The notes beneath the pieces were generated by a model. It did no database searches and was not told the origin of the DNA. It saw only the letters and a program-made list of their open reading frames with translations. The position numbers and the translations under genes are program-made. From a virus, in IMG/VR virus record IMGVR_UViG_3300029319_000235, positions 1 through 33,389 of that record: 33,389 nt of DNA, one strand, 5' to 3'. Positions 21,948-29,011 of this stretch are shown piece by piece (within the stretch, counting starts at the first letter, position 1; every line of letters starts with the position of its first letter).

Positions 21948-22232
21948 ATGAACATTCCAGCCATTCAAAACAAAGCCGAAGCGCAAGGCATCATCGAAGC
22001 GTTGCACGGCATGGCAGACAACTACCATGACATGCACAACCCGATGTTTGGTGAGGATCAAGAGATTGGCGTGTCGGCTTATGAATGTATCCAAGAGGAC
22101 ATTGGCGTAATCATCTCAGACATTGAAGCCGCCACGGCCTTCCCGCTTGTTCTGTCACTTCACACAGCGGCAGAGGATCTATTCATTATTGCGCATGAGC
22201 AATATCACGATGACCCTTCCCTCTGGGATTAA
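21948..22232 (+). CDS. Early hypothetical protein, 94 aa
   Basis: First gene of the plus-strand early operon, with the shared AAAGGATCAA leader. The product is acidic and helical (MNIPAIQNKAEAQGIIEALH) and has no membrane segment. It contains MADNYHDMHNPMFGEDQEIG and ends EQYHDDPSLWD. I recognise no domain. As the first early gene it is a candidate host-takeover or anti-defence protein, but nothing in the sequence shows this. Confidence 0.7.
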   Translation: MNIPAIQNKAEAQGIIEALHGMADNYHDMHNPMFGEDQEIGVSAYECIQEDIGVIISDIEAATAFPLVLSLHTAAEDLFIIAHEQYHDDPSLWD

Positions 22233-22269: not shown

Positions 22270-22479
22270 ATGAATAAGGTTCATATCTCAATCAAGAAAC
22301 AATGCACCGTCTTTAAGGTTCGCGAGGTGCCGTTCCGGTTCGTAGTCGTACTCAATCAAGACATTGAAAAACACGGCGCGGTGACTGCCATTCGCAACAT
22401 GGCAAAACAGGCGGCGGATATTAATTGCGGTAGTGTTGCCAATCATCGAAACATCATAGCAGACATGCTGGAAGGCTGA
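22270..22479 (+). CDS. Early hypothetical protein, 69 aa
   Basis: Small basic protein starting MNKVHISIKKQCTVFKVREV and containing EKHGAVTAIRNMAKQAADIN. A strand-rich first half and a helical second half are likely. No family recognised. The open frame extends upstream to 22123, but the shared leader and the end of the previous gene place the start at 22270. The stop codon lies inside the outer helix of the hammerhead ribozyme, so the 3' end of this message would be set by self-cleavage 38 bases later. Confidence 0.7.
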   Translation: MNKVHISIKKQCTVFKVREVPFRFVVVLNQDIEKHGAVTAIRNMAKQAADINCGSVANHRNIIADMLEG

Positions 22480-22560
22480 TTAGGCCGAAACATGGCGCGG
22501 CACCGTCGCGCTATGTCTGCCGGTATCGCCGGCACTGATGAGGCCCGAACTGCCATCAGC
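22475..22560 (+). ncRNA. Type II hammerhead self-cleaving ribozyme
   Basis: Every core position is present in order. Stem II 3' strand GGCC (22483-22486) is followed by G12 A13 A14 at 22487-22489 and A15.1 at 22490. Stem III has 9 bp (22491-22499 with 22507-22515, one G-U), then U16.1 (22516) and cleavage base C17 (22517). Stem I has 6 bp (22518-22523 with 22529-22534) and loop TATCG. CTGATGA (22535-22541) supplies C3 to A9, and stem II closes with GGCC (22542-22545). Beyond an internal loop, GCTGAT (22475-22480) pairs with ATCAGC (22555-22560). Loop I bases UCG could pair with CGA at 22546-22548, a plausible tertiary contact. Cleavage after 22517 would separate the 69-residue gene from the 241-residue gene. 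Confidence 0.93.
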
Positions 22561-22569
22561 AATCAAGAA

Positions 22570-22579
22570 AAAGGATCAA
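22570..22579 (+). promoter_or_regulatory. Repeated early ribosome-binding leader, copy 3
   Basis: AAAGGATCAA, 4 bases before ATG 22584. It follows the hammerhead by ten bases, so after self-cleavage it sits in a 66-base leader. Confidence 0.85.
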
Positions 22580-22583
22580 ACCA

Positions 22584-23309
22584 ATGAACACAGCAAATCT
22601 TATCCACACCATGCTCACCACTAGCACCGGCACCCATATGCTCGACAGCGGCGGTGATAATGGCAGACATTGGCAGAGAAACCAGAGCAAGTCCCTTGCG
22701 GACTTTAACGCAGAACCAGAGGCGGTTCTAGAGTGGTACTGCAAGCGCGATGATGCCGGCAATATCATAGAGGCAAGCCCAGAGGTCACGGTTTCGCTTT
22801 TCCATAAACTGACAAGCGGCGTCATATGGCAGGACGATTACTGCCGCGAGTTTAACGCCATGCCCTGCGATGATTGGCGCGGCGATTACTACGGCACCAG
22901 CTCAGAACAAAGCGAATGGCTAGACATGCGCGGCTTTGTGCAACCGCATGGCAGTGACGGCTGGAACACTTACAACTGGGATAACAATTTTTCGCAGGTG
23001 ATACAGGGCCACAACTTAGAGCTAGAAGGCGAGCATTATGTCCTGATCCAGGTTCACAACGGCGCTGATGTTCGCGGCGGTTATACCGATGCCAAGTTGT
23101 TTAGGCTCAACGATTACGCAGAGCATCATATAGTCCTCACCGATGACTGCATGTTTTGGGTTGAGGACGCAGAGGGCGAGGAAGTCACCCTTGATTGGCA
23201 CGGTGAATGGATAGCGGACGGCACCTGCGCCTGTGATGAGGACTTTCTAGCCTTTGCCAAGGCTTGCGACGGCAAGGCCGTTACAGGCTGCCAAAACAAC
23301 GATTTTTAA
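22584..23309 (+). CDS. Early hypothetical protein, 241 aa
   Basis: Acidic, aromatic-rich soluble protein. The N-terminal segment HMLDSGGDNGRHWQRNQ and the central NTYNWDNNFSQVIQG are motifs I recall from phage hypothetical proteins, but no function is known to me. Strands and many Trp/Tyr/Asp residues suggest a compact beta fold, and the C-terminus has a short Cys pair (CACDE). Its message would start just after the hammerhead cleavage site. It is the largest of the leader-sharing early genes, so probably a main early product. Confidence 0.75.
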   Translation: MNTANLIHTMLTTSTGTHMLDSGGDNGRHWQRNQSKSLADFNAEPEAVLEWYCKRDDAGNIIEASPEVTVSLFHKLTSGVIWQDDYCREFNAMPCDDWRGDYYGTSSEQSEWLDMRGFVQPHGSDGWNTYNWDNNFSQVIQGHNLELEGEHYVLIQVHNGADVRGGYTDAKLFRLNDYAEHHIVLTDDCMFWVEDAEGEEVTLDWHGEWIADGTCACDEDFLAFAKACDGKAVTGCQNNDF

Positions 23310-24130: not shown

Positions 24131-24516
24131 CAAAAAGGGATAGCCTCGCGTGCTATGTAGAACCATGTCGGCAGAGAAACGAGAACCGTTGCATCGGTGC
24201 CGGTAAACTCAGGGTTTACATGGCGTAGATACAGCTTACACACCGGATCGTGCCGGTCATATTTGTAAATCAAAAGAGGGTGCAATTCACCGGCAGCGTT
24301 TACAGCTTGATGCCACCAAGCGTCTGCGCCGCCATGTGGCCCTGTCGCGTAGCGTTTACATTCGATTGACCAGTAAGGGATCAGGATATCGGCGCCGCCC
24401 TTGTCCTGGTATTGAGAGAGGTTGCGCCGCACGTTCTCGTAACCTAGGTGGTCTTTGATCTCATTGACACACCATCTTTCAAAGGCAGAGCCTTTGCTAC
24501 GCTGCATCTTGCCCAC
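24130..24516 (-). CDS. PD-(D/E)XK nuclease (Hjc-like resolvase type)
   Basis: 128 residues from GTG 24516 (ATG 24507 is an alternative). A conserved Glu is in SKGSAFERWCVNEIKDHLGY. The active-site core is QDKGGADILIPYWSIECKRY, giving D and E-x-K, followed by DAWWHQAVNAAGELHPLLIY, where the Trp-Trp-x-Gln helix is usual in phage Hjc-like nucleases. Such enzymes cut branched DNA. Next to a methyltransferase it could alternatively be a restriction nuclease. The gene overlaps the methyltransferase by 20 bases and is last in the inverted cassette. Confidence 0.75.
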   Translation of the reverse strand: MGKMQRSKGSAFERWCVNEIKDHLGYENVRRNLSQYQDKGGADILIPYWSIECKRYATGPHGGADAWWHQAVNAAGELHPLLIYKYDRHDPVCKLYLRHVNPEFTGTDATVLVSLPTWFYIAREAIPF

Positions 24517-25519
24517 GATCTGCTTCCCTTATGGCGTAAAGAATACGCGCCGCCACTTGCGGCACAATGCTATTTCCTAGCTGTCTAAGTCGGTGTACCC
24601 GACCGGGTACCCCATGAGATACTCGACAAACTCTGGGTTCAGACTGCCACGTTGCCACTCCTCCGGCGTATTGCCTCTGATGTCTGGATGATTGCCCAAC
24701 TGCCTTTGCATCTTGCCGTTGGGTGTCCCCGCTGCATCCTCGTTTGCTGTCGGCGTCGGCCACATTTTCACGCTGTCCGCTGCCGATGGCGTGGCCCACA
24801 TCTGAGGCTCCCCGCTCCGCTGCGTCTCCTCGTCCGGCCAAAACTTTACGAACCGATCCAAGCTCACGCTTTTGCCTGTCAGCGGGTTTACTGCCTCGCT
24901 GCTGGTGCTGTTCCGCTCGATGTGATCGCTGGCTGTCGGCGTTGGGATCATGATGCGCGGCTTGCCCCAGCTTCCCGCGTCCCGATCTCGCATTGATGGT
25001 GCCATTTGATTCGCCTGAGCTGTCGGCGTGTGCAACAATCCAGCAGCGGTCTCGTCTGTGCGGGGCATCTGCGGCGACAGCCGGTATAACGTAGCACCGG
25101 CTGGAGTAGCCTGCGCCTTCCAAGTCAGATAGCACCGTGTCGAGGCCCATAGTGATGTGGCCAGCAACATTTTCTCCAATGACCCAGCGGGGCCGCACAG
25201 CTTTGATAACCCTAAGCATTTCCGGCCAGAGATGTCGGTCATCTTGATCGCCTCTGCGCTTCCCGGCTGTCGAGAAAGGCTGGCAGGGGTATCCCCCTGT
25301 GATGATGTCAACCAATCCTCTAAATCTATCTGCGTCATCTGCAAGCTCCCTGATATCCCCGATGATCTCTGTGTCAGGCCAATGCTTGCGCAAAACCTTC
25401 TGTGCGTGTTCGTCATATTCGCAGAACGCGACAGTCTCATAGCCGCCAACCAGCTTCTCGCCAGCGTAGCTAAACCCCCCAATGCCGGCAAACAGGTCAA
25501 GCATCCGCAAGGGTTTCAC
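24497..25519 (-). CDS. dcm: C5-cytosine DNA methyltransferase
   Basis: 340 residues from GTG 25519. Motif I LDLFAGIGGFSYAG (7-20), motif IV GGYPCQPFS with catalytic Cys79, motif VI GENVAGH (115-121), motif VIII APHRRDRCWIVAHA (152-165) and motif X LRQLGNSIVPQVA near 311-323 are all present, so the enzyme should transfer methyl from S-adenosylmethionine to C5 of cytosine. The target-recognition region (about 165-300) is unusual: hydrophilic, low in hydrophobics and with recurring words HADS, NADS, DADS. The same DNA carries a second open frame. The start overlaps the zinc-finger gene. Likely roles are protection against host restriction or modification within an R-M-like cassette. Confidence 0.93.
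   Translation of the reverse strand: MKPLRMLDLFAGIGGFSYAGEKLVGGYETVAFCEYDEHAQKVLRKHWPDTEIIGDIRELADDADRFRGLVDIITGGYPCQPFSTAGKRRGDQDDRHLWPEMLRVIKAVRPRWVIGENVAGHITMGLDTVLSDLEGAGYSSRCYVIPAVAADAPHRRDRCWIVAHADSSGESNGTINARSGRGKLGQAAHHDPNADSQRSHRAEQHQQRGSKPADRQKRELGSVRKVLAGRGDAAERGASDVGHAIGSGQRENVADADSKRGCSGDTQRQDAKAVGQSSRHQRQYAGGVATWQSEPRVCRVSHGVPGRVHRLRQLGNSIVPQVAARILYAIREADRGQDAA
24577..25242 (-). CDS. Candidate overlapping gene inside dcm (+1 frame)
   Basis: The frame is open for 307 codons (25500-24577) within the 340-codon dcm gene. Its first codon there is TTG, but ATG 25242 has AGAGG eight bases before it and would give 221 residues. The product has protein-like, repeated phrases: STRCYLTWKAQATPAGATLY, LSPQMPRTDETAAGLL, then HTPTA, PTPTASD, ATPSA, WPTPTANEDA, and an end EFVEYLMGYPVGYTDLDS. 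I recall very similar phrases in database proteins near phage cytosine methylases. The PTPTA repeats use the same DNA as the ADS words of Dcm. Whether it is translated, or a trace of dual-frame constraint, is open. Confidence 0.4.
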   Translation of the reverse strand: MTDISGRKCLGLSKLCGPAGSLEKMLLATSLWASTRCYLTWKAQATPAGATLYRLSPQMPRTDETAAGLLHTPTAQANQMAPSMRDRDAGSWGKPRIMIPTPTASDHIERNSTSSEAVNPLTGKSVSLDRFVKFWPDEETQRSGEPQMWATPSAADSVKMWPTPTANEDAAGTPNGKMQRQLGNHPDIRGNTPEEWQRGSLNPEFVEYLMGYPVGYTDLDS

Positions 25520-27401: not shown

Positions 27402-27603
27402 GCCTGTTGATATCGGCACGCCGTATGTGACCCGCGAGGACATGCAGGACAGCATCAACGAGTTGTTCCTGCGTGTCGATCACCTGCAACGCACCGTTGA
27501 TCGCAATGACGAAAAGATAGCTGATATGGAGAGGAGTTTGGCACTGTTTGTCCATCTAATCTCTGATAAGTTAGGAGTTTCCCAAGGAGGCACGAATGAA
27601 TAG
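27391..27603 (+). CDS. Small coiled-coil protein, 70 aa
   Basis: ATG 27391 with AAGGAG eight bases before it. The frame is also open upstream. Residues 15-60 form an amphipathic coiled coil (REDMQDSINELFLRVDHLQR, then TVDRNDEKIADMERSLALF) similar in form to SlyX-like proteins. No catalytic motif. It overlaps both neighbours. Function unknown. Confidence 0.65.
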   Translation: MHSEPVDIGTPYVTREDMQDSINELFLRVDHLQRTVDRNDEKIADMERSLALFVHLISDKLGVSQGGTNE

Positions 27604-28087
27604 CTATATGACAAGCGCCTATTATGTTGGCGCAATCGTGGTGGCAAACGTAGGCTTCACCTACATCCCCATGATCCCACTACCAGGCGGCGAGATGTTC
27701 GCACCGATGAGCTTGCTTGTTGGCTTTGTGTTTGTCTTGAGAGACTTTGCGCAGCGTGACTTGGGACACAAAGTATTCATCCCGATGACGATAGGTTTGG
27801 TTCTGAGTTACCTGCTTGCAGATCCATTCGTCGCCTTTGCCAGTGCGGTAGCCTTTGCCATCAGCGAACTGGTTGATTGGGCTGTCTACACCTACAGCGG
27901 CAAGCCCATCAAGGAGCGTATCCTAATCTCATCAGCCGTCAGTACACCGGCAGACAGTGCTGTGTTCATGCTCATGCTTGGCTTCTTTAGCTGGTATGGG
28001 TTCGTCGTCATGGTGGTCAGCAAAATGCTTGGCGCCTTAGCTGTTTACTACATGCTGAAAAGGAAAAGTGATGCGTCATACATATAA
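27596..28087 (+). CDS. VUT/YhhQ-family queuosine-precursor transporter
   Basis: 163 residues with about six hydrophobic segments (7-27, 36-49, 61-75, 79-98, 120-135, 136-154). Signature segments of the VUT family are VFVLRDFAQRDLGHKVFIPM (46-64), SELVDWAVYTYSGKPIKER (90-108) and SSAVSTPADSAVF (112-124). Cellular YhhQ imports the 7-deazaguanines preQ0 and preQ1. GGAGG lies five bases before ATG 27596. Downstream, with overlaps, are a small unknown gene and a DpdA-like transglycosylase, so imported base probably feeds DNA modification. It is somewhat shorter than E. coli YhhQ (about 220 residues). Confidence 0.85.
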   Translation: MNSYMTSAYYVGAIVVANVGFTYIPMIPLPGGEMFAPMSLLVGFVFVLRDFAQRDLGHKVFIPMTIGLVLSYLLADPFVAFASAVAFAISELVDWAVYTYSGKPIKERILISSAVSTPADSAVFMLMLGFFSWYGFVVMVVSKMLGALAVYYMLKRKSDASYI

Positions 28088-28322
28088 CGTAAGTTTCGCA
28101 CGTTTGTGTCCTGTCGATGGTAGCACCATTCGTTATCTTTTGGAGTTGCGTTCACATCGCAAAGTCTTAGTCGAAGACATTCAAGCAGCTTGCGTTGGCG
28201 ATCATCAGCCAATCTTCCAAGAGGACTTGGCGGCTTTTCTTTCTGAGACATTCGTGTTTGAGAGTGGGCAACTGCAAGGTACTCATAACACGGTGCAAAT
28301 AGTATCAGAGTGGCATCCGTAA
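28071..28322 (+). CDS. Small protein of the 7-deazaguanine module, unknown function
   Basis: 83 residues from ATG 28071, overlapping the transporter gene by 17 bases. Its stop shares a base with the next start (TAATG). It starts MRHTYNVSFARLCPVDGSTI, with a strand pair through RYLLELRSHRKVLVEDIQAA, a helix EDLAAFLSETF and a final strand NTVQIVSEW. The strand-strand-helix-helix-strand order is reminiscent of half a tunnelling (T) fold as in QueD or QueF, but I see neither the zinc histidines nor the QueF catalytic set. The tight coupling with transporter and transglycosylase suggests a role in the same pathway. Confidence 0.6.
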   Translation: MRHTYNVSFARLCPVDGSTIRYLLELRSHRKVLVEDIQAACVGDHQPIFQEDLAAFLSETFVFESGQLQGTHNTVQIVSEWHP

Positions 28323-29011
28323 TGATCCACTACCACGGCACACCGCTGACCCCGAAAGCAATGCTGTATCGCATGGCTGGCAAGCACTTCTGTGTAAGTT
28401 TTGCGAACCCTGCACAGGCCAAAACTTGCATGGAGATAGGGCAGTCAATCATGTGGGACAACGGCGCTTTCACAACCTACACACAGGGCAAGCAGCTTGA
28501 TCGCACTAAACTGTACGCTTGGCTGGAGGACAAGGTGGCACACCCGCATTGGGCTGTGATCCCTGATGTGATTGGCGGTGATGAAGAACAGCAGAGAGAT
28601 TTGCTTTCTGAATGGCCGTTTGGGCCTGAGTTTGGCGCACCTGTCTGGCACATGGCTATGTCGTTTGACTACCTCATGTATCTGACAGACCACTATGGCA
28701 AGGTGTGCTTTGGCTCCAGCGGTGAATACTGGAATGTCGGATCAGACGCTTGGTGTTCAAGAGCCGACGCGGCTTTCAACAAGCTGGCGCAAAAACACCG
28801 GAGAATGCCGTGGATACACATGCTTAGAGGCTTGTCACTTGGTGGTGAACGATGGCCGTTTGCCAGCGCCGACAGTGTGAATGTGGCACGCAACTTCAAG
28901 GACTACGACAGGTGTCCAGAAAAGATGGCTCGAAAAATTGATGGCATCCAAACACCATTGTTTTGGGAGCCGCATCCTGTGCAACAATCAATGTTCGGGA
29001 GAACAGCATGA
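28322..29011 (+). CDS. dpdA: DpdA-like DNA transglycosylase (7-deazaguanine insertion)
   Basis: 229 residues. It resembles the short phage branch of tRNA-guanine transglycosylase-like proteins: IHYHGTPLTP (2-11), HFCVSFANP (22-30), MWDNGAF (44-50, with an Asp placed like that of the TGT DSGGF motif), AVIPDVIGGD (78-87, second acidic site), GSSGEYWNVGS (131-141) and IHMLRGLSL (165-173). DpdA enzymes exchange guanine in DNA for a 7-deazaguanine such as preQ0 or preQ1. The zinc-binding Cys cluster of tRNA-TGTs is absent. No preQ0 synthesis genes (folE, queC, queD, queE) are seen, which fits a salvage route through the adjacent transporter. Modified guanine would protect phage DNA from restriction. 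Confidence 0.8.
   Translation: MIHYHGTPLTPKAMLYRMAGKHFCVSFANPAQAKTCMEIGQSIMWDNGAFTTYTQGKQLDRTKLYAWLEDKVAHPHWAVIPDVIGGDEEQQRDLLSEWPFGPEFGAPVWHMAMSFDYLMYLTDHYGKVCFGSSGEYWNVGSDAWCSRADAAFNKLAQKHRRMPWIHMLRGLSLGGERWPFASADSVNVARNFKDYDRCPEKMARKIDGIQTPLFWEPHPVQQSMFGRTA

Follow-up and report, generated by a model that had tools for sequence, protein, structure and literature searches.

A type II hammerhead ribozyme at a phage gene boundary and a conserved downstream partner of its catalytic core

What hammerhead ribozymes do for phages has been an open question since 2011, when type II hammerheads were described in arrays flanking prophage genes (Perreault et al., PMC3088659). That study shows the prophage hammerheads to cleave both in vitro and inside E. 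coli, and it already proposes message processing as their role. According to PMC10085705, it is still unknown why bacterial ribozymes associate with phage-related and other genes. Here, the question is raised by an IMG/VR virus fragment of a marine phage (the window, by which we mean the whole stretch of 33,389 bases analysed), which contains a complete type II hammerhead at 22483-22545 on the plus strand, followed by a short strand, the anti-core, that is complementary to the catalytic core. The features of the locus are as follows.

22270-22479, plus strand: small upstream open reading frame, 69 residues, TGA stop, no Pfam family
22475-22480, plus strand: upstream GCTGAT copy that can pair with ATCAGC at 22555-22560, a window-specific competitor for the anti-core
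22483-22545, plus strand: type II hammerhead ribozyme, stem II to stem II (sequence, RF02276 match, covariation)
22483-22486, plus strand: 3' strand of the permuted stem II helix, GGCC, partner of 22542-22545
22487-22489, plus strand: core bases G12, A13 and A14
22490-22516, plus strand: stem III hairpin, including the A15.1-U16.1 pair (22490/22516); strands 22490-22499 and 22507-22516
22517, plus strand: C17, with predicted cleavage at 22517/22518, inferred from its place in the hammerhead consensus
22518-22534, plus strand: stem I hairpin, would-be 5' end of the downstream message; strands 22518-22523 and 22529-22534
22535-22541, plus strand: core CUGAUGA (C3 to A9), N7 being U22539
22542-22545, plus strand: 5' strand of stem II, GGCC, paired with 22483-22486
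22555-22559, plus strand: anti-core AUCAG, exact complement of core CUGAU at 22535-22539
22571-22577, plus strand: ribosome-site-like AAGGATC before the next gene; a similar AAGGATCA leader occurs in relatives
22584-23309, plus strand: downstream gene, 241 residues, PHROG 11344

The ribozyme is built as a first-pass annotation of this DNA had described it. Re-reading of the sequence found all core bases at the positions given there, stems I, II and III likewise, and the RF02276 match and the structure both confirmed a permutation open at stem II. The predicted cut would leave a leader of 66 nt (22518-22583), again as annotated. The Rfam search proposed as a check returned RF02276 (Hammerhead_II) as the sole credible match, with the consensus core and stems (27.8 bits, E 6.6e-4 in 241 nt, whole model 1-66), and the hit at 22483-22545 was the only one to this model in the entire record at E up to 10. 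Because 27.8 bits falls short of the RF02276 gathering score of 37, a standard Rfam scan of the window lists nothing. The gathering score is a curator's threshold and no defining biochemical feature, and most relatives of the window ribozyme also score below it. The RF02276 model or its cut-off misses most phage type II hammerheads; in 15 loci, the gathering score finds just 4 of many.

A strict structural scanner, in which the core CTGANGA...GAAA and stems I, II and III were all required, found a single site in the window, with none comparable in 300 dinucleotide-shuffled windows, both strands included. Since the scanner itself required the stems, the fair evidence in the wider set comes from IMG/VR stretches found by the core pattern alone: both hairpins form in 86 of 106 distinct stretches, compared with 5 of 2120 shuffled inserts. 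Stem sequences across the wider hammerhead set are almost completely different. The annotation had also looked to covariation among homologues, and in 14 near relatives the 19 pairs are kept without exception (260 cells, 100% paired), six of them with double changes, such as the C-G to U-A change in stem II of relative L237; when the partners are slid by 1-3 columns, pairing falls to 27-46%. A Blast search of named phages with the DNA of the ribozyme gave short chance-level matches only. The strict-core scanner had no match in PaP3, HTVC010P, or parts of Erythrobacter phage vB_EliS-L02 and MedPE-SWcel-C56, and the published ribozyme of PaP3 has a variant core that would escape this scanner.

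In the window, 3 nt separate the end of the upstream frame's TGA stop from stem II, and the next ATG lies 38 nt after stem II. This placement between a stop codon and the ribosome site of the next gene had been noted before, and it is systematic across hammerheads. Gene context was counted for 202 hammerheads with enough flank, using ORFs of 40 or more codons. An ORF stop falls within -30 to +12 nt of the hammerhead start in 178 of the 202 (18% at random positions), and an SD sequence with an ATG is found within 120 nt downstream in 177 of the 202 (27% at random), the median distance from stem II to the ATG being 24 nt. In the commonest layout (82 of the 178), the stop ends exactly at stem II (37) or one base into it (45), as in TAA followed directly by GGCC or TAG overlapping GGCC. 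Position -1 before stem II is an A in 220 of 225 hammerheads.

The phage resembles HTVC010P-type podoviruses, its portal being ~60% identical to those of Pelagibacter phages. In the window family, the ribozyme stays in one early gene island between homologues of the genes at 21948 and 23508, the latter likely encoding an HTH regulator; that the genes directly beside the ribozyme are early, as annotated, is plausible. No sigma-70-like promoters were found near this island. The adjoining genes are exchanged across the family: in relatives L004-L009 the ribozyme follows, instead of preceding, the gene for the 241-residue protein, and other relatives have other neighbours. We therefore rejected a tie to this gene, and the annotation's idea that its expression in particular is regulated is unsupported, because the adjoining genes are not conserved. 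Elsewhere in the window, at 27596-29011, a YhhQ/Vut_1-like transporter gene (PF02592, slightly under the cut-off) adjoins a queuine tRNA-ribosyltransferase-like gene (phrog_887), a pair that looks like a 7-deazaguanine DNA modification set, and a C5-cytosine DNA methylase gene (PF00145) at 24497-25519 on the minus strand lies in the early region, opposite in strand to its neighbours.

Some phages contain several copies: among the matches listed, L024 has eight hammerheads, L116 four and L185 several. The eight type II hammerheads of L024 (889-5156) share one strand of a 4.3-kb stretch, most of them placed immediately between short genes, and are without an anti-core among the matches listed. 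Six type II hammerheads on one strand were also found in a 5-kb stretch (L260, 1112-6214) of the planctomycete Singulisphaera sp. GP187, two of them with U17 instead of C17.

The ATCAGC downstream of stem II had been annotated as one strand of an outer 6-bp helix (22475-22480/22555-22560) that continues stem II. This helix can form in the window, but it is no conserved part of the ribozyme: an upstream CTGAN copy is present in 5 of 119 tail-selected relatives, and a conserved stem II extension was rejected for the family. Across relatives, ATCAGC is instead the conserved partner of the catalytic core. In the window, the pairing of CUGAU with AUCAG is aided by GGC at 22542-22544 with GCC at 22552-22554.

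Because the remaining core bases are fixed, only N7 can covary with the anti-core. We scanned for matches with all 16 combinations of N7 and its partner allowed, and the matches were structure-checked. Among the matches listed, the partner of T7 is A in 64, G in 13, T in 4 and C in none, and the partner of C7 is G in 33, C in 3, and A and T in one each. Where the anti-core begins 0-1 nt after stem II, N7 is paired in 73 of the 73 matches listed (46 U-A, 25 C-G, 2 U.G). At the level of clusters of related ribozymes, which were built by k-mer similarity and not from a tree, Watson-Crick pairs make up 73 of 93 among the matches listed, compared with a mean of 44.8 and at most 61 in 20,000 shuffles. 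A replication scan with other stem I lengths gave, again by clusters, C-G in 17 of 17 together with T-A in 17, T.G in 5 and mismatch in 2 (Fisher p 2.5e-6). The first anti-core base exceeds shuffles by 0.78 bit in its mutual information with N7, and the next position reaches 0.14; the partner base informs on N7 and little on other positions, loop I included.

The window's own ribozyme family is matched at N7 and its partner in 16 of 16 members (12 T-A and 4 C-G). L101 and L222 share the same flanks and differ by exactly the N7/partner double change, and L192 and L222 contain the window's 45-nt ribozyme letter for letter, but with C7 and GUCAG (CTGACGA...GTCAG). An 8-nt insertion, not seen in relatives, places the window's anti-core 9 nt after stem II instead of 0-1 nt. 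Taken together, these comparisons demonstrate, at the level of sequence, the anti-core pairing, the ribozyme fold and the placement at gene boundaries.

The anti-core was first noticed in 22 of 102 distinct hammerheads. Among 225 hammerheads gathered without regard to the tail, it is present in 49 (~22%; 22 of 91 in set A and 26 of 118 in set B, for both of which the stem II sequence was fixed, and 1 of 16 in genomes), while other 5-mers of the same letters average ~1.4 per set of roughly 100. Since ~78% of these unbiased type II copies lack an anti-core, it is not essential to the ribozyme. Type II hammerheads without an anti-core had no excess of core pairing over shuffled tails (0.436 vs 0.455), and a general hiding of the core in all type II hammerheads was rejected. 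In L272 and L261, anti-core pairing is seen at longer range across an inserted hairpin, which suggests that the 0-14 nt rule for the anti-core undercounts. The only genome-collection matches with an anti-core are two hammerheads ~340 nt apart on a Rhodobacteraceae MAG contig (L257, 212-608), a pair that may lead to a host.

The active fold and the anti-core fold exclude each other. We propose, with confidence that is evenly balanced, that the hammerhead severs the phage message at the junction of two reading frames and that the anti-core provides it with a conserved one-way latch. The RNA would cleave after C17 as soon as its core strand and stem II are transcribed, and hammerhead chemistry would give 5'-OH and 2',3'-cyclic phosphate ends. 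The upstream message would then end in the stem III hairpin with the cyclic phosphate, just behind its stop codon. The downstream fragment, having lost its partner strands, would refold with CUGAU paired to AUCAG; because of this pairing, the new message would start with a 5'-OH and the stem I hairpin, directly followed by the anti-core hairpin and, a short way on, the ribosome site. Such refolding would prevent religation and shield the 5' end. That cleavage occurs in vivo and in this order, and that the latch serves to protect, is what we infer. In folding calculations, the 3' cleavage product has a mean P(anti-core) of 0.99 (0.92 in the window). The window's GCTGAT copy, which few relatives share, could occupy the anti-core until cleavage carries GCTGAT off.

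It is possible, though less probable, that the anti-core acts earlier, as an OFF switch that sequesters the core in the uncut message, which would stay whole until the core is freed, cleavage being conditional. Release could come, for example, from a protein, from a ribosome at the start site nearby or from the one that terminates upstream; the anti-core is indeed close to the ribosome site, and a stop codon lies at the edge of the ribozyme. The folding energies of the precursor also agree with such a switch. Across 110 anti-core ribozymes, the median gap between the two secondary structures is 0.5 kcal/mol and RNAfold of the precursor with its tail gives a mean P(anti-core) of 0.85 vs 0.11 for stem II, and the window has -31.7 kcal/mol for the active fold, -36.9 with the outer helix added and -32.9 for the anti-core fold, but such energies ignore tertiary contacts and so cannot decide between latch and OFF switch. 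That the precursor with its tail often prefers the anti-core counts against the latch and fits the OFF switch equally. On the other hand, neither a conserved sensor nor a third element was found. Furthermore, the core and stem II emerge before the anti-core, with a P(stem II) of 0.99 in the window just before the anti-core emerges, so cleavage may win over trapping. We favour the one-way latch over the OFF switch because stem II is already available when transcription reaches the anti-core and because the cleavage product has no alternative.

We consider it improbable that the element is a plain constitutive splitter of the message, as proposed in 2011 for prophage hammerheads, with the tail as a by-product or a mild tuning of the fold. 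The placement between genes, the several copies per phage and the lack of an anti-core in most type II copies are consistent with this explanation, as is the reported cleavage of prophage arrays (PMC3088659), but the N7/partner double changes recur, and selection on the anti-core pairing is therefore needed. Cutting of the early message, as the first-pass annotation had it, is the natural reading of a type II hammerhead at a gene boundary; a constitutive cut is not the whole story, because ATCAGC is conserved as the partner of the catalytic core.

The tail could also be the known partner of loop I in a pseudoknot that speeds type II hammerheads, an explanation that we regard as very unlikely. 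The type II consensus in PMC3088659 does pair loop I with the tail right after stem II, and a possible 3-bp helix, UCG at 22526-22528 with CGA at 22546-22548, can be picked out by eye in the window. However, this CGA sits in the 8-nt stretch missing from relatives, UCAG is constant while loop I varies widely, and the variable tail base tracks N7 and not loop I, which mostly refutes the pseudoknot; the four or more loop I-tail pairs that such a pseudoknot calls for were not found, the window offering its 3-bp candidate only. Least likely of all, and hardly credible, is a decayed or inactive hammerhead remnant, as the sub-threshold Rfam score could suggest, given that the core bases are all intact, the stems are kept via double changes, and most relatives likewise score under the gathering score.

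In viroids, hammerheads are hidden by alternative folding of the monomer. The principle, a core inactivated by other base pairs, is the same here, but viroids are rod-like circular RNAs, whereas the anti-core forms a compact 5-bp hairpin adjoining the ribozyme in the message of a DNA phage. The RF02276 type II hammerheads, as PMC3088659 describes them, have the same core, three stems and stem II opening, and also lie between phage genes with several copies per phage. The hammerheads analysed here differ from that description, so far as it is available, by an anti-core covarying with N7, which is absent from it, by a stop codon fused to the ribozyme edge, and by scores mostly below the Rfam cut-off. 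The pseudoknot of loop I with the 3' tail in PMC3088659 also uses the nucleotides directly after stem II; it supports activity, whereas the pairing of the present tail with the catalytic core excludes activity. We found no description of the anti-core in the open-access literature, and an earlier one may exist elsewhere. The ribozyme at the gene boundary is thus of a kind known since 2011, and the downstream anti-core is the new part.

The one "free" core base has a conserved partner, which indicates that a second fold of this strand is under selection in phages. Double mutants of N7 and its partner could separate message processing, protection of the new end, and switching, and the anti-core motif provides a search rule for hammerheads missed by the Rfam cut-off. 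More tentatively, the hammerhead with its anti-core may be a widespread phage message element, a tuned two-state switch whose cutting between genes would depend on translation or on some other signal in the course of infection.
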